From a virus: DNA of 64,000 nt. Shown in pieces: positions 1,770-62,400 of the stretch. The stretch is taken from IMG/VR virus record IMGVR_UViG_3300032331_003609, positions 62,001 to 126,000 of that record; one strand, 5' to 3'. Numbering within the stretch: the first letter of the stretch is position 1; every line of letters begins with the position of its first letter. The notes beneath the pieces are model-generated. The model was not told where the DNA came from. It did not search any database and was given only the letters and a program-made list of their open reading frames with translations. Position numbers and translations under genes: made by a program.

Positions 1770-4265
1770 ATGAACAATACTATAAATTTAGTTTATGATG
1801 ATTGGCCATTAGATCAGGATCATCCCAATCCTAATGGTGATAAATATTTTCCCGAACCTAATGCGTGGATGACAGGAGATGGTCCGATGGAAACCCTTAG
1901 ATATGATAATTATGTTCACAGAAGAATGGAGGACGTTGATAAGTATCAAGAGGAAAATTTCTTCTATGTTGTTTGGCATAGGCATTCTCTATACAATAGA
2001 TTTTTGCACTTTGACAGACTACCGATAGGTGATGACATGATTGGGCATTTTCAAAGAAAGCCTAATTTATTTCTTCTTTTGATAAATGATCAGGAAATCG
2101 AACCAAGAGAAACCATAAATAAACTTGATTTAGCTCTTGAAAGAAATAATATAGATCCAAGAAAAGTATTTTTAGTTAACAACAATTCAAGAAACTGGGA
2201 ATATAAAAGAGAACTTGGAAGTAACATCAATGTTCATAGCTGTAGAGCAATGCCCCTAGCTCTTGCAAAAACCCCCAAAAGTGTTTTCGTAGAGAATAAA
2301 GAGGGGTCATTTTTCATGTCACATAATCATTCTTTGAGAGAAAGCAGATCTGCTTTTGTTTGCCTTCTTAAGAAATATAATTTGATTGATGATTTTGATT
2401 GGTCCTATTTAAAACTCTGGAGAATGCCAACACAGGACTGGGAGACAATCTATAGAAGGATATTTAATGACTCTGATATGGAATTTTTAATGCCTGAGAT
2501 TGAATATTTCAATGCGTACGGGGTTAAGAAAAGCAATTATGAATCACATTTTCCATGGCTTGATGAAATAACCATGGATAGTCCTTCCTGGTGGGAAACA
2601 TTTAATCCTCAGCAGTACGAAAATACTTATTTCAATGTGACTGTAGAGACCCAATATTTCGGAAGGGATCTTCATATAACCGAAAAATCATTCAAGCCGT
2701 TTATACATTTGCAATTTCCTATGATACTAGCTTCTAGACATCATATTAAACATATGCGTGAATATTATGGCTACGATTTCTTTGATGATGTAATCAATCA
2801 TGATTATGATAACGTTAAGAGCGATAGAGATAGAATTTTTAGGTTTATAGAGGAATTAAAAAGGATTCAGGAAAATAAAGAATTCTTCATAGAATTTTAT
2901 AAGAATAATAAAGAAAGATTCTTAAAAAATCAAGAAATGGTTTATTCTTTTACTAATGAATATGATGCCAGCTATTTTTCTGCACTAACAAAATTTGATC
3001 ATCCAAAGGAAACGCTTAATTTAGTTTATGATAATTGGGACATGGAGACTAATCGTCCTATAAGGGGAAACTCTGAAGACCTATACACTAATACTTTTCA
3101 TATGAATTTGGATAGCGTTGTAGGATCACTTCAATTTGATAGGAGATTAATCAGAAGATTCAGACTAGAGGACGTTCCAAAAATGAAAAATCAAATATTT
3201 TTCTATTTCATAACTTTAATCCCCGGTATTTTATCCGAAAATATAAAAGCAGGGAAGCTTCCGATAAACAAAGATGCTATTAACACACTAAAGGAGTGTC
3301 CAAACTTTAATGTTATAATAATGAATGAACAGGAAGCTGAGAGGAAAGAAGCATTGGTACTTCTAGACAAATGGACAAGAGAAACAGGATTAGATCAGGG
3401 GCAAATATGGTTTTCCAATAACAATCCAAGGCTTGAAGAATTTAAGGAAGAAATAGGAACGGGAATAAACGTACATTCGACTGTTAGATTAGCTAACTTC
3501 ACTGCTAATTCTGTTATACATTCTGTAGGTAGAGTGGAATTTAAACCTAATAAAGATGGTGAATTTTTTATGTGTCATAACAGAAGACCAAGACCACATA
3601 GATATGGACTACTTTGCTTGCTTAAAAAGACAGGAATTTTAGAAGATGTTGATTGGTCCTTAGTTCAAGGATTTCAATTCAAGGATAATAAACACCCAGA
3701 AGCATTCTTTGGAGAAATATTCAACGGTGATGATATAGCAAATATGAGAGAAGAGATTGATTATTTTTCTAGCATCGAACAAAAGAAAAGTAGATATGAA
3801 GAGGAAAGAACATGGTTTGATGACAGAGATAATGAGAATAATGTTCCATGGAATGAAACATACGATAAGAATCAATTGGAAAATTCCTATTTTAATATCA
3901 CGACGGAAACGGAATTTGCTTCTGATTTAACACATATATCTGAGAAATCGTTTAAATCGTTTTGCGCAATGCAATTTCCATTAATACTTGCATCTGCACA
4001 TCATATTAGAGAAATTAAAAAGAAATATGATTTTGATTTCTTTGATGATGTTATCAATCATGATTATGATGAGGAGGAAAATCACAGAGATAGACTTTTT
4101 AAATTTGTTAAAGAGATAAAAAGAATAAATGACAATAAGGAATTCTTTATAGACTTTTATAAAAATAATAGGATGAGATTTGAAGAAAATTTAAGAAAAA
4201 TAGAAGAGAAGGTTAAGGATCAAACGGATTCAGATTTTCTTAAAAAAATATCAGGCATAATATGA
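1770..4265 (+). CDS. Internally duplicated GT-like protein
   Basis: An 831-residue protein made of two homologous halves, about 1-410 and 414-831. Each half begins with a (I/L)NLVYD(D/N)W block. Each ends with the module ITEKSFKPF or ISEKSFKSF, then QFPLILAS or QFPMILAS, HHI, and FFDDVINHDYD. The same C-terminal module appears once in the protein at 29713. It resembles the donor-binding region of GT10 (fucosyltransferase-like) proteins, but I cannot prove the family. The stop codon overlaps the next start by 4 bases, so it is translationally coupled to the SDR/oxygenase gene. Function is inferred only from this context. Confidence 0.7.
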   Translation: MNNTINLVYDDWPLDQDHPNPNGDKYFPEPNAWMTGDGPMETLRYDNYVHRRMEDVDKYQEENFFYVVWHRHSLYNRFLHFDRLPIGDDMIGHFQRKPNLFLLLINDQEIEPRETINKLDLALERNNIDPRKVFLVNNNSRNWEYKRELGSNINVHSCRAMPLALAKTPKSVFVENKEGSFFMSHNHSLRESRSAFVCLLKKYNLIDDFDWSYLKLWRMPTQDWETIYRRIFNDSDMEFLMPEIEYFNAYGVKKSNYESHFPWLDEITMDSPSWWETFNPQQYENTYFNVTVETQYFGRDLHITEKSFKPFIHLQFPMILASRHHIKHMREYYGYDFFDDVINHDYDNVKSDRDRIFRFIEELKRIQENKEFFIEFYKNNKERFLKNQEMVYSFTNEYDASYFSALTKFDHPKETLNLVYDNWDMETNRPIRGNSEDLYTNTFHMNLDSVVGSLQFDRRLIRRFRLEDVPKMKNQIFFYFITLIPGILSENIKAGKLPINKDAINTLKECPNFNVIIMNEQEAERKEALVLLDKWTRETGLDQGQIWFSNNNPRLEEFKEEIGTGINVHSTVRLANFTANSVIHSVGRVEFKPNKDGEFFMCHNRRPRPHRYGLLCLLKKTGILEDVDWSLVQGFQFKDNKHPEAFFGEIFNGDDIANMREEIDYFSSIEQKKSRYEEERTWFDDRDNENNVPWNETYDKNQLENSYFNITTETEFASDLTHISEKSFKSFCAMQFPLILASAHHIREIKKKYDFDFFDDVINHDYDEEENHRDRLFKFVKEIKRINDNKEFFIDFYKNNRMRFEENLRKIEEKVKDQTDSDFLKKISGII

Positions 4266-16757: not shown

Positions 16758-17035
16758 AAAAAGAAATAAAAGAAAAAGCTAAAATGATAGCTAATGGAAC
16801 ATATACACCTCCCGAGAAGGAGAAGGTAGAATTGACTTTCGGGATAACAGAGAAGCAATATAAAAAATACCAAAGATGGCGAAATGCAAAAAAGAAAAAA
16901 GAAGGCGAACTTTATGTTGGTGCAATAGGTGGTGCATATTCATTCTGTTTCACGTCAACCGGTATTGGTGAGATAGTGACAGTGAAAGCAGCAGACGGTG
17001 ATGAATTAGATTTAACAGATTATAACACATGGTAA
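16754..17035 (+). CDS. Hypothetical protein
   Basis: A 93-residue protein with a basic helical N-terminal half (KEIKEKAK, KQYKKYQRWRNAKKKK) and a short beta-rich C-terminus with GAIGGAYSFCFTSTGIG. No family recognised. It is coupled to the phosphoesterase upstream (ATGA overlap) and to the HAD gene downstream, so it is expressed with them. Confidence 0.65.
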   Translation: MKKEIKEKAKMIANGTYTPPEKEKVELTFGITEKQYKKYQRWRNAKKKKEGELYVGAIGGAYSFCFTSTGIGEIVTVKAADGDELDLTDYNTW

Positions 17036-17634
17036 TGAAAGTAATATTTTTAGATCACGATGGTGTGATATGTCTTTCCAATAACTGGGGAGGCAGAGCA
17101 AAGAAACAGAAGGAATATGGCAGAAAGATGAGTCAATCTATTAATGAACTTCCGGTAGAGGTTAGATTTGACGATTTTGACAAAAAAGCTATTGACGTTC
17201 TTAATTTAATTTTAGAAGAGACAGGAGCTGAAATAGTAGTGAGTTCAGATTGGAAGCGCTGGGCTTCAGCAGATGAACTTGGAGAATATTATGAACAGCA
17301 AGGTATTATAAAAAAACCAATTGCCTGCACTCCTTTTTTTAGGGATCTTCAGGCTGCAGGTAAAATACCAGGGTATGATGATTTTGTATGGAACAGAACA
17401 GATCAATTGGAGCAAGAAAGACATTTTGAAATTCTTGAATGGTTAAAAGAACATCCAGAGATAACACATTGGGTAGCAATAGATGATTTGAATATGGGTA
17501 TACCGGTTAGCACACATCACTACGGAGATTTTGATAGAGAATGGGGTTTAACAAATTTTGTTTGGACACCACAGGAATCCGAGGGAATCAAACAATCGGG
17601 TAAGAAAGAAAAGATTTTAGAATTTTTAAAATAA
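17035..17634 (+). CDS. HAD-family phosphatase-like protein
   Basis: A 199-residue HAD protein starting MKVIFLDHDGVICL, in which DHD is the nucleophile motif I. EIVVSSDWKRW is motif II-like and THWVAIDDLN is the acidic motif IV. It resembles the HAD domain of the Swiss-army-knife RNA-repair family, though it is single-domain here. The TAATG overlap with the preceding stop favours 17035 over an ATG 6 bases upstream. Probably a nucleotide or RNA-end phosphatase; the substrate is inference. Confidence 0.75.
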   Translation: MKVIFLDHDGVICLSNNWGGRAKKQKEYGRKMSQSINELPVEVRFDDFDKKAIDVLNLILEETGAEIVVSSDWKRWASADELGEYYEQQGIIKKPIACTPFFRDLQAAGKIPGYDDFVWNRTDQLEQERHFEILEWLKEHPEITHWVAIDDLNMGIPVSTHHYGDFDREWGLTNFVWTPQESEGIKQSGKKEKILEFLK

Positions 17635-17639
17635 TAATT

Positions 17640-17990
17640 ATGGAATATGTACCAGTTTTTGCTTTAATGTTTGTCTTCATTGGATTAATCTCTTGGTCGT
17701 GGGTTAAAGGAATTGACCACATGAAAGAGAATCATCCAGATTATAAAGGCGATGATTTTTTGAATTGGGGAAATGAAAAGATCGACGATGAATTTAGTAG
17801 ACAAGCTCGAGCAAATCAGCCTGAGATTCTTGGTAAAAAACCTAAGACCCAGACTGATTATGCAAGGGAGCATAGCAAACCAAATCCCAAACAATTTGAT
17901 GGGATTGAAAGTGAAGAACCTTTTGTGAAAACTAGAAAGAAGAAGAAAAGAAATTGGGAAGATGAAATAGATATTGGAGGTTCAGAATAG
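17640..17990 (+). CDS. Small membrane-anchored hypothetical protein
   Basis: A 116-residue protein with one N-terminal transmembrane segment (about residues 5-23) followed by a charged soluble tail rich in Lys, Asp and Glu, ending in KKKKRNWEDEIDIGG. It likely sits in the host inner membrane with the tail in the cytoplasm. No family recognised. It follows the HAD gene by 5 bases. Confidence 0.6.
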   Translation: MEYVPVFALMFVFIGLISWSWVKGIDHMKENHPDYKGDDFLNWGNEKIDDEFSRQARANQPEILGKKPKTQTDYAREHSKPNPKQFDGIESEEPFVKTRKKKKRNWEDEIDIGGSE

Positions 17991-18007: not shown

Positions 18008-18017
18008 GAATATATAA
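18008..18017 (+). promoter_or_regulatory. GATATATAA-like box upstream of tmRNA
   Basis: GAATATATAA ends 24 bases before the mature 5' end of the tmRNA, a plausible promoter distance for a stable RNA with a short 5' leader. Confidence 0.45.
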
Positions 18018-18041
18018 CTCTCAATTAGTTCTTTAAAATAT

Positions 18042-18466
18042 GGGTCCGTCTGGCTTTGATCCGGATGCGAATGGTAATACTACACGCAGAGGTATGGTAC
18101 TCATCCTCTTTAATCTCGGTACAAACCAATAAACGACAACACAATAGCTCGTCAAGAAATCGGTGCATCAATTATCAACATGGCGTTTGCGAACGCTCCT
18201 GTTGCTTTAGCAGCGTAATTCTTCCCCTGGTGACTTGGGTGGAACAGTAAGTCATAAACCGGTATAGCAATATGCCAAACAGTTTTATCCTTTTTTACAA
18301 AATGGATTGGTGGTTAACGTACTTAAATCGTACGGCCCTTACTGATCAGCTTAAAACGTAGATCAAAAAATACGGAGCAGAATTAAAAACTCAGTTCTAA
18401 GCGTGTGAGACGTTAGTGTTATGATTACTTTCGGAGACAGGGGTTCGAATCCCCTCGGATCCACCA
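18042..18466 (+). ncRNA. ssrA: tmRNA (ssrA)
   Basis: A phage-encoded transfer-messenger RNA of 425 bases. The ends form a 7-bp tRNA-like acceptor: GGGTCCG at 18042 pairs with CGGATCC at 18456 with one G-T, followed by A and an encoded CCA. The T arm AGGGG-TTCGAAT-CCCCT is canonical. The 5' part TGGCTTTGATCCGGATGCGAA and the 3' TTTCGGA match the tmRNA consensus, and ACACGC pairs with GCGTGT in P2. An internal reading frame ends ANAPVALAA at 18189-18215, then TAA, the expected degradation-tag ending. The resume codon is uncertain; the frame is open from GCT at 18147. It rescues stalled ribosomes and marks their products for proteolysis. Confidence 0.92.
18147..18218 (+). other. tmRNA tag reading frame
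   Basis: In-frame codons from GCT at 18147 to TAA at 18216 would encode up to 23 residues, ending ANAPVALAA. The final ALAA is typical of tags read by ClpXP-type proteases. The true resume codon could lie further downstream, leaving 9-23 residues. Confidence 0.7.
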
Positions 18467-18472
18467 TTATAT

Positions 18473-18547
18473 CGTAGGGTAGAGCAGTGGTAGCTCGACG
18501 GGCTCATAACCCGTAGGTCGGAGGTTCGAATCCTTCCCCTGCAACCA
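18473..18547 (+). tRNA. tRNA-fMet (CAT), initiator type
   Basis: A 75-base tRNA with encoded CCA and anticodon CAT in the arm ACGGG-CTCATAA-CCCGT. It carries three hallmarks of bacterial initiator tRNA: a C1xA72 mismatch at the acceptor end (CGTAGGG against CCCTGCA), an A11-T24 pair in the D stem (GAGC/GCTC), and three consecutive G-C pairs below the anticodon loop. The T arm is GGAGG-TTCGAAT-CCTTC. It starts 6 bases after the tmRNA, so the two are probably one transcript. Two other CAT tRNAs at 28539 and 29072 lack these features. Confidence 0.9.
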
Positions 18548-18558
18548 AATTAAAAATC

Positions 18559-18942
18559 ATGTCTACAAATTGCAATATTTGCAGCGATAAATGTTTCGGG
18601 AAAGAGGGATATGATGGAAGTTGCTGTACAATAGAAGGACGTGACTATATTATAGGTCCTCATAGAGACGCTAAAGAATTCATTCAATCATTATCATTAA
18701 AGCTAGGAAGATCGATCAGCTATGAGTCAATATTCATAGATTATGAAGAAGGGAAAAGACTTTTTCCTGACAAATCTGCGTGGCAAAATCCTAATTCCTA
18801 TCCAGCATTTAGAGTCGATTTAAATAATTCTAGAAAACCCTGTATTTTTTATAACACAGTGGTTAAATCGTGTATGGTGTATGATATTAGACCAGAAACC
18901 TGTGAGGTGTATCAATGTGATTATCTTAAAGGTCAGATCTAA
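18559..18942 (+). CDS. Cysteine-cluster (YkgJ-like) protein
   Basis: A 127-residue protein with ten or so cysteines. The block CIFYNTVVKSCMVYDIRPET followed by CEVYQC matches the zinc/iron-chelating YkgJ family, whose biochemical role is poorly defined. The N-terminus adds CNICSDKC and CC. It begins 11 bases after the initiator tRNA and may be read from the same transcript. Probable metal binding is inferred from the cysteine pattern. Confidence 0.72.
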   Translation: MSTNCNICSDKCFGKEGYDGSCCTIEGRDYIIGPHRDAKEFIQSLSLKLGRSISYESIFIDYEEGKRLFPDKSAWQNPNSYPAFRVDLNNSRKPCIFYNTVVKSCMVYDIRPETCEVYQCDYLKGQI

Positions 18943-19122: not shown

Positions 19123-21612
19123 ATGCCATTAATTTTAAGAAATGTAAAGGGTTCAGCTTTAACCATCCAAGAGATGGATAATAACCTTGAGTATTTATAC
19201 AATAGAACATCCGTTGGAACTTCTGGATCTTCGGGTACTTCTGGTGTTCAAGGAGCTCAGGGTAATACTGGATCTACCGGAGCACAAGGAGCAGCAGGAT
19301 CGGGTGCTCAGGGAGCAGCAGGATCAACGGGAGCACAGGGTAATACTGGATCTACTGGAGCACAAGGAGCAGCAGGTGCAGGAGCACAAGGAGCAACAGG
19401 AGTTGGAGCACAAGGAGCACAAGGATCAACTGGGGCACAAGGTAATAGTGGATCGACAGGAGCACAAGGAGCAGCAGGTGCAGGAGCACAAGGAGCAGCA
19501 GGTGCAGGATCACAAGGAGCAGCAGGTGGAACAGGAGCACAGGGTAGTATTGGATCTACAGGAGCACAAGGATCTAAGGGAGACACAGGAGCTGGTGCTC
19601 AGGGAGCTACGGGAGCACAGGGTAATACTGGATCTACAGGAGCACAAGGATCTAAGGGAGACACAGGAGCTGGTGCTCAAGGAGCAGTAGGCGGAACAGG
19701 AGCACAAGGGGATACAGGATCTACAGGAGCACAAGGAGCAGCAGGTGCAGGAGCACAAGGAGCAACAGGATCAGGTGCTCAAGGAGCAGCAGGTGGAACA
19801 GGAGCACAGGGGGATACAGGATCTACAGGAGCGCAGGGAGCAGCAGGTGCAGGAGCGCAAGGAGCAGTAGGCGGAACAGGAGCACAAGGGGATACAGGAT
19901 CTACAGGAGCACAAGGAGCTAAAGGTGATACCGGAGCTGGTGCTCAGGGAGCACAAGGAACAGCGGGTGGAGAAGGAGCCCAAGGAGCAACTGGATTACA
20001 AGGAGATACAGGAGCTCAAGGATCTGATGGAGCACAAGGAGCTCAAGGATCTGATGGAGCACAAGGAGCTCAAGGATCTGATGGAGCACAAGGAACTAAA
20101 GGAGATAACGGAGCACAAGGTGACACAGGAGCACAAGGTACTAAAGGAGACGCTGGAGCACAAGGAGCTAAAGGAGACAACGGAGCACAAGGAGATACAG
20201 GAGCACAAGGTACTAAAGGAGACGCTGGAGCACAAGGAGCTAAAGGAGACAACGGAGCACAAGGTAACAATGGATCTGATGGAGCACAAGGAACTAAAGG
20301 AGATATAGGATCACAAGGATCAAAAGGTGATACTGGGGCACAAGGAGCTTCAGGAGCACAGGGATCAACAGGAGCACAGGGAACTGACGGAACATCAATT
20401 AAGTGGATGGGCGGATGGGTAAATAATATACCATATGGAAGAAATGATGTAGTTCAGTATAACGGGGATACCTATATAGGTCAAATTGATTCCATCACGG
20501 TCGGAACTTCCCCAGATAATAATTTGGCACAGTGGGATATATTTGTTCTTTCCGGAGAAGGAGCACAGGGAACAACTGGATCTAATGGAGCACAAGGAGC
20601 AACTGGATCTAATGGAGCACAAGGAGCAACTGGATTTGATGGAGCTCAGGGTGCTAAAGGGGATACAGGAACACAGGGAGCAGCTGGACCTCAAGGAGAA
20701 GCAGGAACATCAGGCGCTAGTGGAGCACAGGGTGTTGCAGGATCTTCTGGCATCACCGGTACATCAGGATCTTCTGGTAGTGCTGGTACATCAGGAAGTT
20801 CGGGTAGTACTGGAACATCAGGAAATTCTGGTAGTGCTGGTACATCAGGAAGTTCAGGAAGTTCGGGTAGCACTGGAACATCAGGAAGTTCGGGTGCTAC
20901 TGGAGGAGCAGGAACCTCAGGAACCTCAGGAACAAGAGGTACGTCAGGAAGTTCTGGGACTTCCGGTGCTACAGGAACCTCAGGAACATCAGGAGCAGTA
21001 GGAGCACAAGGAGCAGCAAATACAGGAGCACAAGGTTCAGACGGTGCACAGGGTGCTAAAGGAACTTCAGGAACATCTGGAGCTGTTGGGGGTGCAGGAA
21101 CATCAGGGACATCCGGTGCTAGTGGAGCACAAGGAGCAGCAAACACAGGAGCACAAGGAGCACAAGGAGCAACAGGAGCACAAGGAGCAGCAAACACAGG
21201 TGCACAAGGAGCAACCGGGTCTGGATTCTCAACAATCACTAGTTATTCAGATGGTAGAATCCTAATTTCAGATGGTGGATCTAATACTGCTAAATGTAAC
21301 TCTAGTGTTACAGTAAGTGGAAATAATATTTATGCAGATGCTTTCTATCAGAATTCAAGTATTCTATTAAAAACAAACGTAGAGACATATAAAGATAGCG
21401 CTATAAATCTATTAAAGGGAGTTGAAGTTGTTAAATTTAATTACAAACACGATTTAGATGTTAATCATATTGGATTTATAGCAGAAAATACTCCAGAGGA
21501 ATTATCTACATCAAAAAGAAATACTATGGATGTTCCCTCTGTTGTTGGTGTTTTAATTAAAGCTATACAAGAATTATCTGATAAAATAGAAGAGCTAAAA
21601 AATAAGAATTAA
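19123..21612 (+). CDS. Collagen-like tail fibre with S74-type chaperone domain
   Basis: An 829-residue fibre protein. The N-terminal ~28 residues ([18 protein letters not shown]) resemble the attachment segment of marine phage fibres. Collagen-like Gly-X-Y repeats follow, mostly GAQ and GST or GSS triplets, at about 35-425 and 480-705. An interposed module at 426-477 ([20 protein letters not shown]) looks like a carbohydrate-binding CBM5/12 domain. The last ~85 residues ([24 protein letters not shown]) resemble the intramolecular chaperone of S74 proteins, which trimerises fibres and often self-cleaves. Probably adsorption to host or environmental glycans. Confidence 0.85.
19213..21230 (+). 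repeat. Collagen-like coding repeat, fibre 1
   Basis: Degenerate 9-base repeats of the type GGAGCACAA, interrupted once at 20398-20560. All six frames stay open because of this composition, so ORFs on the other frames here are artefacts. Confidence 0.9.
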
Positions 21613-27568: not shown

Positions 27569-27656
27569 GGAGAGATGGCAGAGTTGGTCGATTGCGTCAG
27601 TCTTGAAAACTGAAGAACGGGAAACTGTTCCGTGGGTTCGAATCCTACTCTCTCCG
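27569..27656 (+). tRNA. tRNA-Ser (TGA)
   Basis: Acceptor GGAGAGA pairs with TCTCTCC. The anticodon arm TCAGT-CTTGAAA-ACTGA gives TGA. A long class II variable arm and canonical TTCGAAT are present. Discriminator G; the next bases are CA rather than CCA. Confidence 0.92.
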
Positions 27657-27699
27657 CAGGCGCAATTTCGTACCTTATACAGATATAGGGTATGAATAA

Positions 27700-27771
27700 G
27701 CATCTTAAGCATTGCAGGCGATGCGCCAGATTTGTAATCTGGATAACTCGGTTCGATTCCGGGCGGATGCT
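27700..27771 (+). tRNA. tRNA-Thr (TGT)
   Basis: Anticodon arm CCAGA-TTTGTAA-TCTGG; T loop TTCGATT. Acceptor GCATCTT against CGGATGC has one mismatch at the inner pair. Confidence 0.87.
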
Positions 27772-27864
27772 CAATACTAACGTAAAATAAGTACACTAAC
27801 ATAATATCTGTTAGAATACAAAAGTTCGGTAGCAAGGTTATTAACGCGTTTTATAAAGATATAG

Positions 27865-27985
27865 GCCGGTGTGGCGGAATGAATAATCTTGAATTCGAAT
27901 AGAGATTATTAGACGTCCCGTAATTCTAGAAAAGGTGGTGTATCCGAAATGGACATCGTGAAGGTAGTCAACCCTTCCACCGGCA
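27865..27985 (+). ncRNA. Expanded tRNA-like RNA (Leu-like ends)
   Basis: 121 bases with a perfect 7-bp acceptor (GCCGGTG/CACCGGC), a GTGGCGGAAT start typical of tRNA-Leu, and a 5-bp stem GAAGG/CCTTC in the T position with the non-canonical loop TAGTCAAC. The D-loop position carries an inserted hairpin with 8-bp stem AATAATCT/AGATTATT. I cannot place a standard anticodon arm. Either a decayed tRNA with an insertion or a distinct tRNA-like RNA. Confidence 0.5.
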
Positions 27986-28000
27986 CCTTATTTAAGATAT

Positions 28001-28086
28001 TCTAAGAACAGCGTCGAGCCGGATTTTGCGTCGGTCTTAGATTAGATTTGTCCAATGGGAGAGCCGGCCGCGACCCCGGACAAATC
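28001..28086 (+). ncRNA. Two adjacent strong hairpins between tRNAs
   Basis: TCTAAGA at 28001 pairs with TCTTAGA at 28035. Three bases later GATTTGTCC at 28045 pairs perfectly with GGACAAATC at 28078. GC-rich loops (GCCGGCCGCGACCCC) stand out from the AT-rich surroundings. No tRNA fold is possible. Could be a processing signal or small RNA. Confidence 0.4.
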
Positions 28087-28094
28087 ACTATATT

Positions 28095-28168
28095 GGTTCT
28101 GTAGCTCAGTTGGATAGAGCGCCACCCTTCTAAGGTGGATGTCATTGGTTCGAATCCAATCGGGATCA
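28095..28168 (+). tRNA. tRNA-Arg (TCT)
   Basis: Anticodon arm CCACC-CTTCTAA-GGTGG; T arm ATTGG-TTCGAAT-CCAAT; D arm GCTCAGTTGGATAGAGC. The acceptor GGTTCTG/CGGGATC includes G-T pairs. Confidence 0.93.
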
Positions 28169-28179
28169 CAATTAAGGTT

Positions 28180-28304
28180 GATTGGGGAATGGTTATGTCT
28201 ATAGCTCGAGCGTGGATACTGGCTGGCATAATCGGAGTTTGGAGGTATTCACCTAAGTAATGCCAATCGTAAAAGAGATCGTCCACTGAACCATCTTTCT
28301 CTTT
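28180..28304 (+). ncRNA. Structured inter-tRNA region
   Basis: GATTGG at 28180 pairs with CCAATC at 28263, closing an ~90-base domain that contains CTCGAG and an AGGT/ACCT hairpin but no tRNA arms. A second hairpin follows, AAAGAGA (28272) with TCTCTTT (28298). No coding sequence. Function unknown. Confidence 0.35.
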
Positions 28305-28315
28305 CCTTAAAATAT

Positions 28316-28390
28316 GTTGGATGTAGCCTAATGGTAGGGCAAATGCTTGTGGCGCATTACGCGTGGGTTCGATCCCCATCATTCAACCCA
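28316..28390 (+). tRNA. tRNA-His (GTG)
   Basis: Anticodon arm AATGC-TTGTGGC-GCATT; T arm GTGGG-TTCGATC-CCCAT. It has G at position -1 and discriminator C73, the usual His identity elements, plus an encoded CCA. Confidence 0.93.
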
Positions 28391-28394
28391 ATAT

Positions 28395-28470
28395 CTAGAT
28401 GTAGAGGAGCCAAGTTTATCTCGCTGCTTTTGGAAAGCAGAGCACGCTGGGGCGGAGCCAGCCATTTAGA
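28395..28470 (+). tRNA. tRNA-Pro (TGG) with non-canonical T loop
   Basis: Acceptor CTAGATG/CATTTAG and anticodon arm CTGCT-TTTGGAA-AGCAG are sound, giving TGG. The T stem GCTGG/CCAGC is perfect but its loop reads GGCGGAG instead of TTCRAnY. Either a functional variant or a damaged gene. Confidence 0.65.
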
Positions 28471-28471
28471 C

Positions 28472-28534
28472 AAAAAGATCAAAGAGACCGCTAAATCGAG
28501 TTAGTGAAAATCTACATTCTCTTTGGTCTTTTAT
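28472..28534 (+). ncRNA. Long 15-bp hairpin
   Basis: AAAAGATCAAAGAGA at 28473-28487 pairs with TCTCTTTGGTCTTTT at 28518-28532 with a single G-T. The 30-base loop has its own CTAA/TTAG pairing. The T-rich end could make it a terminator for the preceding tRNAs, or it may be an independent small RNA. Confidence 0.5.
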
Positions 28535-28538
28535 ATTA

Positions 28539-28612
28539 GGACTTGTAACTCAGTTGGTTAGAGTGCAACACTCATAATGTTGAAGCCCCTGGTTCGAGCC
28601 CAGGCTGGTCCA
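28539..28612 (+). tRNA. tRNA-Met or tRNA-Ile2 (CAT)
   Basis: Anticodon arm CAACA-CTCATAA-TGTTG; T arm CCTGG-TTCGAGC-CCAGG. Acceptor GGACTTG/CTGGTCC has one T-T mismatch. It lacks initiator features. A CAT tRNA could also be a lysidine-modified Ile tRNA; the sequence cannot decide. Confidence 0.88.
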
Positions 28613-28627
28613 CGAAATAGTGTCTTG

Positions 28628-28691
28628 GTACGCTCTGAAGAAATTCAACGACAAGGTCTCGGTAAGCGAAACGCGTTCGATCTTGCCCAAA
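28628..28691 (+). other. Inter-tRNA hairpin region
   Basis: GACAAGGTC at about 28659 pairs with GATCTTGCC at about 28679 with one mismatch, enclosing a GCGAAACGC mini-hairpin and a TTCGATC that mimics a T loop. No complete tRNA fold found. Function unknown. Confidence 0.3.
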
Positions 28692-28698
28692 ATATAAA

Positions 28699-28780
28699 GG
28701 CCCCCTGTTGTAATTGGTAGCCAATTCAGATTTAGGATCTGATGTCGCAAGACGTGTCGGTTCGAGTCCGACGGGGGTCA
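28699..28780 (+). tRNA. tRNA-Leu (TAG)
   Basis: Acceptor GGCCCCC/GGGGGTC; anticodon arm TCAGA-TTTAGGA-TCTGA; class II variable arm TGTCGCAAGACGT; T arm GTCGG-TTCGAGT-CCGAC. Confidence 0.93.
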
Positions 28781-28827
28781 CAACAAGATTAGGTACAAAA
28801 AGATATTAAGAAACTAAACCTAAAAAC

Positions 28828-28837
28828 GATATATAAT
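28828..28837 (+). promoter_or_regulatory. GATATATAA-like box
   Basis: GATATATAAT, 15 bases before the tiny ORF at 28853. Confidence 0.45.
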
Positions 28838-28852
28838 ATTCAACTAAACAAA

Positions 28853-28936
28853 ATGAGAAACCAGAATCAATATAATTATTACCCAATGCCTGAACAAGGT
28901 AATGAGGGAAATTATATGGACACAGATCTGGGATAA
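28853..28936 (+). CDS. Tiny ORF, 27 residues
   Basis: Encodes MRNQNQYNYYPMPEQGNEGN and seven further residues, acidic and Asn/Gln/Tyr-rich. It has its own upstream box and a terminator 20 bases downstream, inside the tRNA array. Like the ORF at 27378, it is organised as a complete micro-gene. Confidence 0.45.
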   Translation: MRNQNQYNYYPMPEQGNEGNYMDTDLG

Positions 28937-28956
28937 CATTTTTTAAATATATTTTG

Positions 28957-28992
28957 AAAACCCAGATCTCAATAAGGTCTGGGTTTTTTATT
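28957..28992 (+). terminator. Intrinsic terminator
   Basis: AAAACCCAGATC pairs with GGTCTGGGTTTT, followed by T run. The same stem recurs at 35727. Confidence 0.85.
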
Positions 28993-28993
28993 T

Positions 28994-29066
28994 GGGGATG
29001 TAGCTCCAGCGGTAGAGCGCGTGACTGTTAATCACTAGGTCGTAAGTTCGAATCTTACCATCCCCT
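28994..29066 (+). tRNA. tRNA-Asn (GTT)
   Basis: Acceptor GGGGATG/CATCCCC; anticodon loop CTGTTAA; T arm GTAAG-TTCGAAT-CTTAC. Confidence 0.93.
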
Positions 29067-29071
29067 CAGAT

Positions 29072-29145
29072 TGCAAGATAGTTCATTTGGTGAGAACACT
29101 GGATTCATAACCCAGAGGTGATGAGTTCGAATCTCATTCTTGCGA
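29072..29145 (+). tRNA. tRNA-Met or tRNA-Ile2 (CAT)
   Basis: Acceptor TGCAAGA/TCTTGCG; anticodon loop TTCATAA, stem CTGGA/CCCAG with one mismatch; T arm ATGAG-TTCGAAT-CTCAT. Not initiator-like. Met elongator versus lysidine-type Ile cannot be decided. Confidence 0.9.
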
Positions 29146-29150
29146 CAAAT

Positions 29151-29222
29151 GCTCCCGTCGACTAGCGGTTAGGTCACCTCCCTTTCACGGAGGTAGCACG
29201 GATTCGAATTCCGTCGGGAGTA
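29151..29222 (+). tRNA. tRNA-Glu (TTC)
   Basis: Anticodon arm CCTCC-CTTTCAC-GGAGG; acceptor GCTCCCG/CGGGAGT with a terminal G-T; T arm ACGGA-TTCGAAT-TCCGT. Confidence 0.92.
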
Positions 29223-29227
29223 CAAAT

Positions 29228-29308
29228 TGGGATATCGCATAGTGGCAATTGCGGCTGACTGTAAATCAGCTCTCTTTGAGTTCGGCGGTTCGAGTCCGTC
29301 TATCCCAA
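29228..29308 (+). tRNA. tRNA-Tyr (GTA)
   Basis: Acceptor TGGGATA/TATCCCA; anticodon arm GCTGA-CTGTAAA-TCAGC; class II variable arm; T arm GGCGG-TTCGAGT-CCGTC. Confidence 0.92.
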
Positions 29309-29314
29309 CAATAC

Positions 29315-61827: not shown

Positions 61828-62400
61828 ATGGCAGGATTACCACATTATACATCTTCTAAGGCAGCGGTTAATAAATTTGAACCGATTTTTACTAATCAGT
61901 TCGAGGTATTGATCACTCCGCCTACTGCTGTAGTTCCCCCACAGGGAAGTCCTAATAACGGGAACATACTTTTAGAGCATGTGAAGAGTATAGAGGGATT
62001 AGCAGTTGATCAAAACCCTGGTGAGATCACTCAACAGTATAAGAATGCTAAAAGATATTATGCAGGAGCAAGACCACAAAGAACCGGTCTTGATCTTACT
62101 ATAAATTTTGAAGTTAACTTAGATGAAAACAATTCGATGTATGTTTTCAAAACTATGAGACAATGGGCAGATTTAATCTACAACCCATTAACAGGAGCAT
62201 TGGGTCTTAAAAAAGACTATACTGGAAATATACTTATCAGTGTATTTAATAAAGCAGGCGACGTACACAGAAGAATAAGTTGCAAAGATTGCTTTATTAT
62301 GACCCCATTATCACAAATGGATTTAAACTACACCAATACTAACTTGTTTGCTTTAAGAGTTACATGGGCAGTTGATTATTTCGATGACGTATTTATATAA
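61828..62400 (+). CDS. Tail tube protein (gp19-like), copy A
   Basis: A 190-residue tail tube subunit. MAGLPHYTSSKAAVNKFEPI, NQFEVLI, YNPLTGALGLKKDY and FDDVFI match the gp19 family, which forms the inner tube inside the sheath. It follows the sheath gene by 40 bases and precedes a close paralogue by 9 bases. Confidence 0.9.
   Translation: MAGLPHYTSSKAAVNKFEPIFTNQFEVLITPPTAVVPPQGSPNNGNILLEHVKSIEGLAVDQNPGEITQQYKNAKRYYAGARPQRTGLDLTINFEVNLDENNSMYVFKTMRQWADLIYNPLTGALGLKKDYTGNILISVFNKAGDVHRRISCKDCFIMTPLSQMDLNYTNTNLFALRVTWAVDYFDDVFI

Follow-up and report, generated by a model that had tools for sequence, protein, structure and literature searches.

An intact initiator-type tRNA gene directly behind a tmRNA gene in a large phage genome

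Phage tRNA genes are mostly explained by codon supply. Because an initiator tRNA decodes no extra codon, the remaining explanations, namely the replacement of destroyed host tRNAs or the control of initiation, can be tested cleanly with it. Here we describe an initiator tRNA placed directly behind a tmRNA, in a 64,000-nucleotide stretch of viral DNA (referred to below as the window). The window corresponds to positions 62001–126000 of a 244,850-bp virus record and holds all tRNAs that Rfam found in this record.

The tRNA at 18473–18547 (+ strand) is an intact initiator-type tRNA-fMet(CAU). ARAGORN called it as tRNA-Met(CAT), and its Rfam score was 64.4 bits against a gathering score of 29, with position 1–72 as the sole non-standard pair in the Rfam alignment. 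Script reading of the acceptor gave C1×A72, with no Watson–Crick pair at 1–72, then G2–C71, U3–G70, A4–U69, A73 and an encoded CCA. The D stem carries A11–U24, a purine 11–pyrimidine 24 pair, the D-loop has 7 nt, and the anticodon stem (ACGGG/CCCGU) contains G29–C41, G30–C40 and G31–C39 around the loop CUCAUAA. Thus, the C1×A72 mismatch, the A11–T24 pair and the three anticodon-stem G–C pairs claimed in a preliminary description of this DNA were all confirmed by script reading and the Rfam alignment. That description had named a misregistered acceptor with a normal 1–72 pair as its refutation. This possibility was ruled out, since the register is set by the encoded ACCA together with the UA/GAGC junction, in agreement with the Rfam alignment and with the minimum-energy fold, a cloverleaf in which base 1 is unpaired. 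The other CAU tRNAs in the window (28539 and 29072) are elongator-type, with G1–C72 or U1–G72 and a pyrimidine at position 11. The E. coli initiator has C3–G70 and G4–C69, so that the window tRNA differs at both of these second-tier elements, and the E. coli optimum for formylation is not U3–G70/A4–U69. In the main tRNA array (27569–29309), CCA is encoded only in the His tRNA, while the tmRNA and the initiator tRNA both encode it, and these two genes perhaps have a separate origin from the array.

The mismatch at 1–72 is not a chance feature, because it is kept through different bases in syntenic relatives, as A×A in L432 and U×U in G039 and G038. Across the clade of the window, 1–72 is C–A, A–A or U–U and the remaining acceptor is paired, indicating that the mismatch itself is conserved. 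A wider view was obtained from IMG/VR with a pattern of the initiator D-arm and anticodon arm that left the acceptor stem free. The pattern matched at least 120 stretches, some of them on contigs that are surely prophage flanks or host DNA. Among the matches listed, 1–72 was unpaired in 88 of the 105 distinct phage initiator-core tRNAs from fetched loci, compared with 9 of 515 non-CAU tRNAs at the same loci; from this difference, phage initiator-type tRNAs look to be under selection as initiators. The unpaired types among the 105 were C–A (29), T–T (22), C–T (15), A–C (8) and others, and a strong G–C pair occurred once. The usual bacterial initiator has C–A at this position, not T–T, C–T or A–C. 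Many of these tRNAs belong to long tRNA arrays on large phage contigs, most of those tabulated have the same CUCAUAA loop as the window tRNA, and the named carriers include Mycobacterium phage Drazdys (A1×C72), Caulobacter phage J4, Komagataeibacter phage phiKX1 and the Lak phages. The earlier statement that phage tRNA arrays normally carry elongators therefore understates the frequency of initiators, which are fairly common in phages rather than exceptional. Many phage genes annotated as tRNA-Met would accordingly be initiators under constraint, hidden by their annotation.

Several unusual arrangements were observed around these tRNAs. The 735-kb genome LR756501 (L315 11890–12154) has a tandem run of three initiator-like CAU tRNAs, of which one shows a long variable region. 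In twelve contigs (L426, L428, L429, L434, L437, L438, L440, L443, L450 and L452–L454), the initiator tRNA lies about 4 nt behind a T-arm plus acceptor half (..CGGCGGTTCGACTCCGCCCACTTCCA). This half was called by neither ARAGORN nor Rfam, seems to be paired with an upstream GGGAGTG with G3–U70, and may belong either to an interrupted tRNA or to a tmRNA in reduced form. Upstream of 9478 (− strand) in L427 lie tRNA-like sequences in which about 60 nt are inserted close to the anticodon; these are possibly interrupted tRNA genes.

The upstream partner is an intact one-piece tmRNA (ssrA; 18042–18466, + strand), detected by ARAGORN and by the Rfam covariance model RF00023 (80.3 bits vs. a gathering score of 47). 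It has the acceptor pair G3–U70, the alanine identity element, an encoded CCA and a tag reading frame (18147–18218, + strand) for the 23 amino acids ARQEIGASIINMAFANAPVALAA and a stop, with the LAA-like end ALAA. In G000, L136 and G039, the acceptor helix shows compensated pair changes while G3–U70 is constant, and the tag end A[LVI]AA is kept. A DNA similarity search of the window tmRNA against the phage collection gave no match. When compared with L136 and L432, its outer parts were 78% (5' side) and 80–85% (3' side) identical, the stretch after the tag was close to chance similarity in most comparisons, and in place of the tag D.ELSTMTFEDAMSFVGADYA.AA of L136, L432 and G039 it has ARQEIGASIINMAFANAPVALAA. 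These comparisons show a mosaic tmRNA, with an unrelated tag set between related ends. The long conserved tag STMTFEDAMSFVGADYA.AA occurs in several phages (L136 41–423, L312 1803–2185 and L432 3458–3872), with variants in L510 and L552; the tag at 18147–18218 of the window is unrelated to it.

The tRNA begins 6 bases after the tmRNA, as had been described (tmRNA end, 18466; tRNA start, 18473), with the spacer TTATAT (18467–18472, + strand) running from the CCA end of the tmRNA to base 1 of the tRNA. Since these 6 nt are all A/T and a separate promoter could hardly fit in between without reaching into the tmRNA body, both RNAs are likely carried on one precursor transcript. The boxA-like leader AGTTCTTTAAAATAT (18027–18041, + strand) ends exactly at the tmRNA 5' end; it had a single match in the window and none in Markov controls, and a leader of this kind occupies positions −15 to −1 of the tmRNA in five loci (the window, L136, L432, L431 and L436). 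This sequence resembles the boxA-like leaders that Bacteroidota rRNA operons carry. In addition, GTTCTTTGACATATTGG precedes tRNA genes in several relatives. Further upstream lies AATATATAA (18009–18017, + strand), a copy of the motif RATATATAA, which was found 14 times in the window (5.9 expected), often just 5' of genes. The motif type also occurs 5' of the tmRNA in L136 and L432 and 5' of both RNAs in G039, and the copy at 18009 is a possible late-type promoter. We regard both the boxA-like and the promoter-like motifs as resemblances. A boxA-like GTTCTTTGACATATTGGAAAA, which resembles host rRNA leaders, was also seen upstream of phage tRNA genes in L103, L132, L218, L224, L225, L231, L260, L355, L357, L375 and L387.

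The tandem is kept in diverged relatives. In L136, the initiator tRNA follows the tmRNA after an 8-nt spacer; the contig stops within this tRNA, whose first 32 bases are identical. In L432, the spacer of the tandem measures 9–10 nt, and four neighbours are syntenic, namely the phosphoesterase (85% identity), the HAD protein (76%), ORF116 (75%) and ORF127 (89%). In G039, the order is kept, but two ORFs (1.66 kb) separate the RNAs; co-transcription is therefore not essential, given this distance and a promoter-like motif before each RNA. An inverted repeat (GGTAGCA...TGCTACC) and then a T run were observed 3' of the G039 initiator tRNA (L312 ~3924–4060), a candidate terminator or small structured RNA.

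The terminase of the window phage was nearest to those of huge uncultured phages, followed by Sphingomonas phage PAU, Tenacibaculum phages PTm1/PTm5 and Flavobacterium phage MaF61. These relatives and the leader motif are the two grounds on which a Bacteroidota host is considered probable. SmpB was not found in the 244,850-bp record, and neither were methionyl-tRNA formyltransferase, deformylase or peptidyl-tRNA hydrolase (Pth), absences to be read with the possible incompleteness of the record. The host would therefore have to supply SmpB.

We consider it reasonably probable that the locus serves a large Bacteroidota-type phage as a stable-RNA operon, which supplements the host's initiation and ribosome rescue in the infected cell. 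Transcription would begin upstream of the boxA-like leader and yield a single precursor, with the tmRNA ahead of the initiator tRNA, that is cleaved within the short A/T spacer. The host methionyl-tRNA synthetase would charge the initiator tRNA, the unpaired 1–72 end would mark it for formylation by the host formyltransferase, and the initiation machinery of the host would then use it. The tmRNA would be charged with alanine via G3–U70 and would work with host SmpB. Both RNAs would sustain starts and ribosome recycling while host stable RNAs are no longer renewed, which is the presumed benefit, and all protein partners would be borrowed from the host, with the phage supplying RNAs only. This explanation is supported by the intact genes, the identity elements, the conserved tandem, the mismatch kept through base changes and the lack of matches to the partner proteins in the record. 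It does not invoke a dedicated regulatory coupling of the tmRNA to the initiator tRNA, and the supply of both RNAs is a more economical reading than their joint control. In practical terms, the tandem is a compact genetic unit, open to deletion or relocation.

How far the pairing itself matters was judged from its recurrence. A broader search aimed at the tandem found a tmRNA directly followed by an initiator-type tRNA, with unrelated tags, in L431 (5 nt), L436 (4 nt) and L455 (0 nt); of the three anticodon-stem G–C pairs, two, one and two are present, respectively, so that these tRNAs are less canonical. As a control, a tmRNA pattern blind to the downstream sequence provided 85 distinct phage tmRNAs with room downstream. 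An initiator tRNA lay within 60 nt 3' of none of them (0/85), ruling out the tandem as the usual arrangement of phage tmRNAs, and three of the 85 had another tRNA in this range (Leu, Gln and Gly). A Gly tRNA also follows the tmRNA in G048. Because the recurrences were found by searching and the blind sample gave none, they do not alone establish initiators as preferred neighbours of tmRNA. Both RNAs occur in one genome in LR756500, Lak-B5, G045, G046, G048 and the Bxz1-type mycobacteriophage Drazdys, and in most phages with both they are separated by hundreds of bases to hundreds of kilobases. The tmRNA-then-initiator order was found in none of 84,980 cellular genomes with a pattern that requires an encoded CCA and C1 and so covers bacteria whose genes encode CCA; its one match, L308, has a tmRNA and no called tRNA. 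Direct pairing is thus rare, yet present in several phage lineages. What is new is an arrangement of known parts, an intact and conserved initiator tRNA behind a tmRNA.

The preliminary description had read the locus as control of initiation together with ribosome rescue. The placement of an initiator-type tRNA beside a tmRNA stands, and a joint precursor is likely, but a special partnership is conjectural, given the blind sample, the partner proteins not found and the separation of the two RNAs in other phages. The strongest rival has no functional link at all: two useful stable RNAs share a promoter and processing cheaply, and any tRNA would do. We give it an even chance of being right, and it is compatible with the supply role, as it denies coupling only. 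It agrees with the Leu, Gln and Gly tRNAs behind phage tmRNAs and with the distance between the RNAs in most phages that have both, whereas an initiator tandem conserved in one clade and present in three other contigs, though found by targeted search, speaks against it.

The neighbouring genes raise a different possibility. A calcineurin-like metallophosphoesterase (PF00149; 15939–16757, + strand) and a HAD_SAK_2 phosphatase (PF18143, 'Swiss Army Knife RNA repair'; 17029–17634, + strand) lie within 2.1 kb upstream of the tandem and are syntenic in L136 (80% and 84%), L432 and G039 (71% and 65%). Between the HAD gene and the tmRNA, a small ORF of 116 amino acids (17640–17990, + strand) is conserved in place in L136, L432 and G039, and a Cys-rich ORF of 127 amino acids (18559–18942, + strand), with its counterpart in the same place in L432, starts 12 nt past the tRNA. 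Shortly past the tandem, an 829-aa collagen-like repeat protein with GAQGA/GTSG repeats was observed (19123–21612). End-healing phosphatase roles have been described for such HAD domains and, among jumbo phages, for calcineurin-like domains in a few cases (PMC7824862), and VapC cleavage of initiator tRNA is on record (PMC10264068, PMC12482277). The locus may be a counter-defence module. Host toxins of the VapC type, which cut initiator tRNA, or of the MazF/RelE type, which cut mRNA, would halt initiation and leave ribosomes stranded, and a fresh initiator tRNA, a tmRNA freeing ribosomes and RNA-end healing enzymes would act together in response. A polynucleotide-kinase-like gene 0.4 kb past the tandem in the unrelated L431 fits this idea, as does a 656-aa ORF of the record (G000:242410–244380; L342 1429–3399) that carries a KLNG ligase-like motif and, at the C-terminus, a nucleotidyltransferase-like one; however, its PF09414 match was weak and below cut-off, and scanned alone it had no Pfam match at E ≤ 0.001. 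Moreover, a VapC-type nuclease should also cut the phage copy, which has the usual loop CUCAUAA, and phages are reported in general to avoid encoding tRNA-fMet where VapC targets it (PMC10264068). HAD_SAK_2 seemed to be a constant partner of initiator tRNA in 9 relatives and was rejected as such in a wide sample: it is widespread, and its homologue loci had an initiator tRNA within 6 kb in 4 of 80 cases and a tmRNA in 0 of 80. We regard the counter-defence module as rather unlikely and the link of the tandem to RNA repair as a lead only. A narrower version makes the tandem a dedicated translation-restart unit, in which one precursor would deliver a fixed ratio of ribosome-clearing RNA and restart tRNA, with the RNA-healing neighbours, against host nucleases cutting mRNA and initiator tRNA; this appears improbable.

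An elongator or a non-translational RNA with the look of an initiator is very improbable. U3–G70 and A4–U69 are off the E. coli optimum, and L431, L436 and L455 have one or two of the three G–C pairs, but the remaining initiator marks are all kept, and elongator-type CAU tRNAs are already present twice in the window. Temperate phages commonly integrate at tRNA and ssrA genes. A passenger pair carried from the host as an attachment-site remnant, suggested by the ssrA integration habit (PMC9004378), is scarcely credible, since both genes are complete, the tandem is kept across diverged relatives, the record, G039 and G001 gave no match to the tyrosine-type integrase family Phage_integrase (PF00589), and the 84,980 cellular genomes yielded neither the order, under the pattern above, nor a near match to the phage initiator sequence.

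Among known systems, phage RNA-repair systems combine an end-healing phosphatase/kinase with an RNA ligase; the window has HAD_SAK_2 and Metallophos genes, and the ligase-like ORF of the record was below cut-off. Counter-defence tRNAs of the escape-variant type have an altered anticodon loop through which they evade the host nuclease, while the window tRNA has the unchanged CUCAUAA. A phage tRNA annotated as fMet is mentioned in passing for the Erwinia jumbo phage pEa_SNUABM_47, in a text that does not mention tmRNA (PMC7760394). Phage-encoded tmRNAs were reported in 402 of 18,146 phage genomes, given as 2.3% (PMC9004378), and in huge phages (PMC7162821); the window tmRNA is likewise complete with an LAA-type tag end, and differs in the initiator tRNA directly behind it, in a tag region unlike that of its nearest relatives and in that a phage SmpB was not found. 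Drazdys also has an initiator-type tRNA-Met (A1×C72, GGG/CCC) and a tmRNA in one tRNA array, but the two genes are about 4.9 kb apart, the tRNA is annotated simply as tRNA-Met, and the phage has a peptidyl-tRNA hydrolase gene, which lies 0.5 kb before the initiator-type tRNA (91807–92783; L276/L314). Finally, the window tRNA departs from bacterial tRNA-fMet in U3–G70, A4–U69, the 7-nt D-loop and its phage locus behind a tmRNA, and shares with it the 1–72 mismatch, A11–U24, the three G–C pairs, the CAU anticodon and the loop CUCAUAA.
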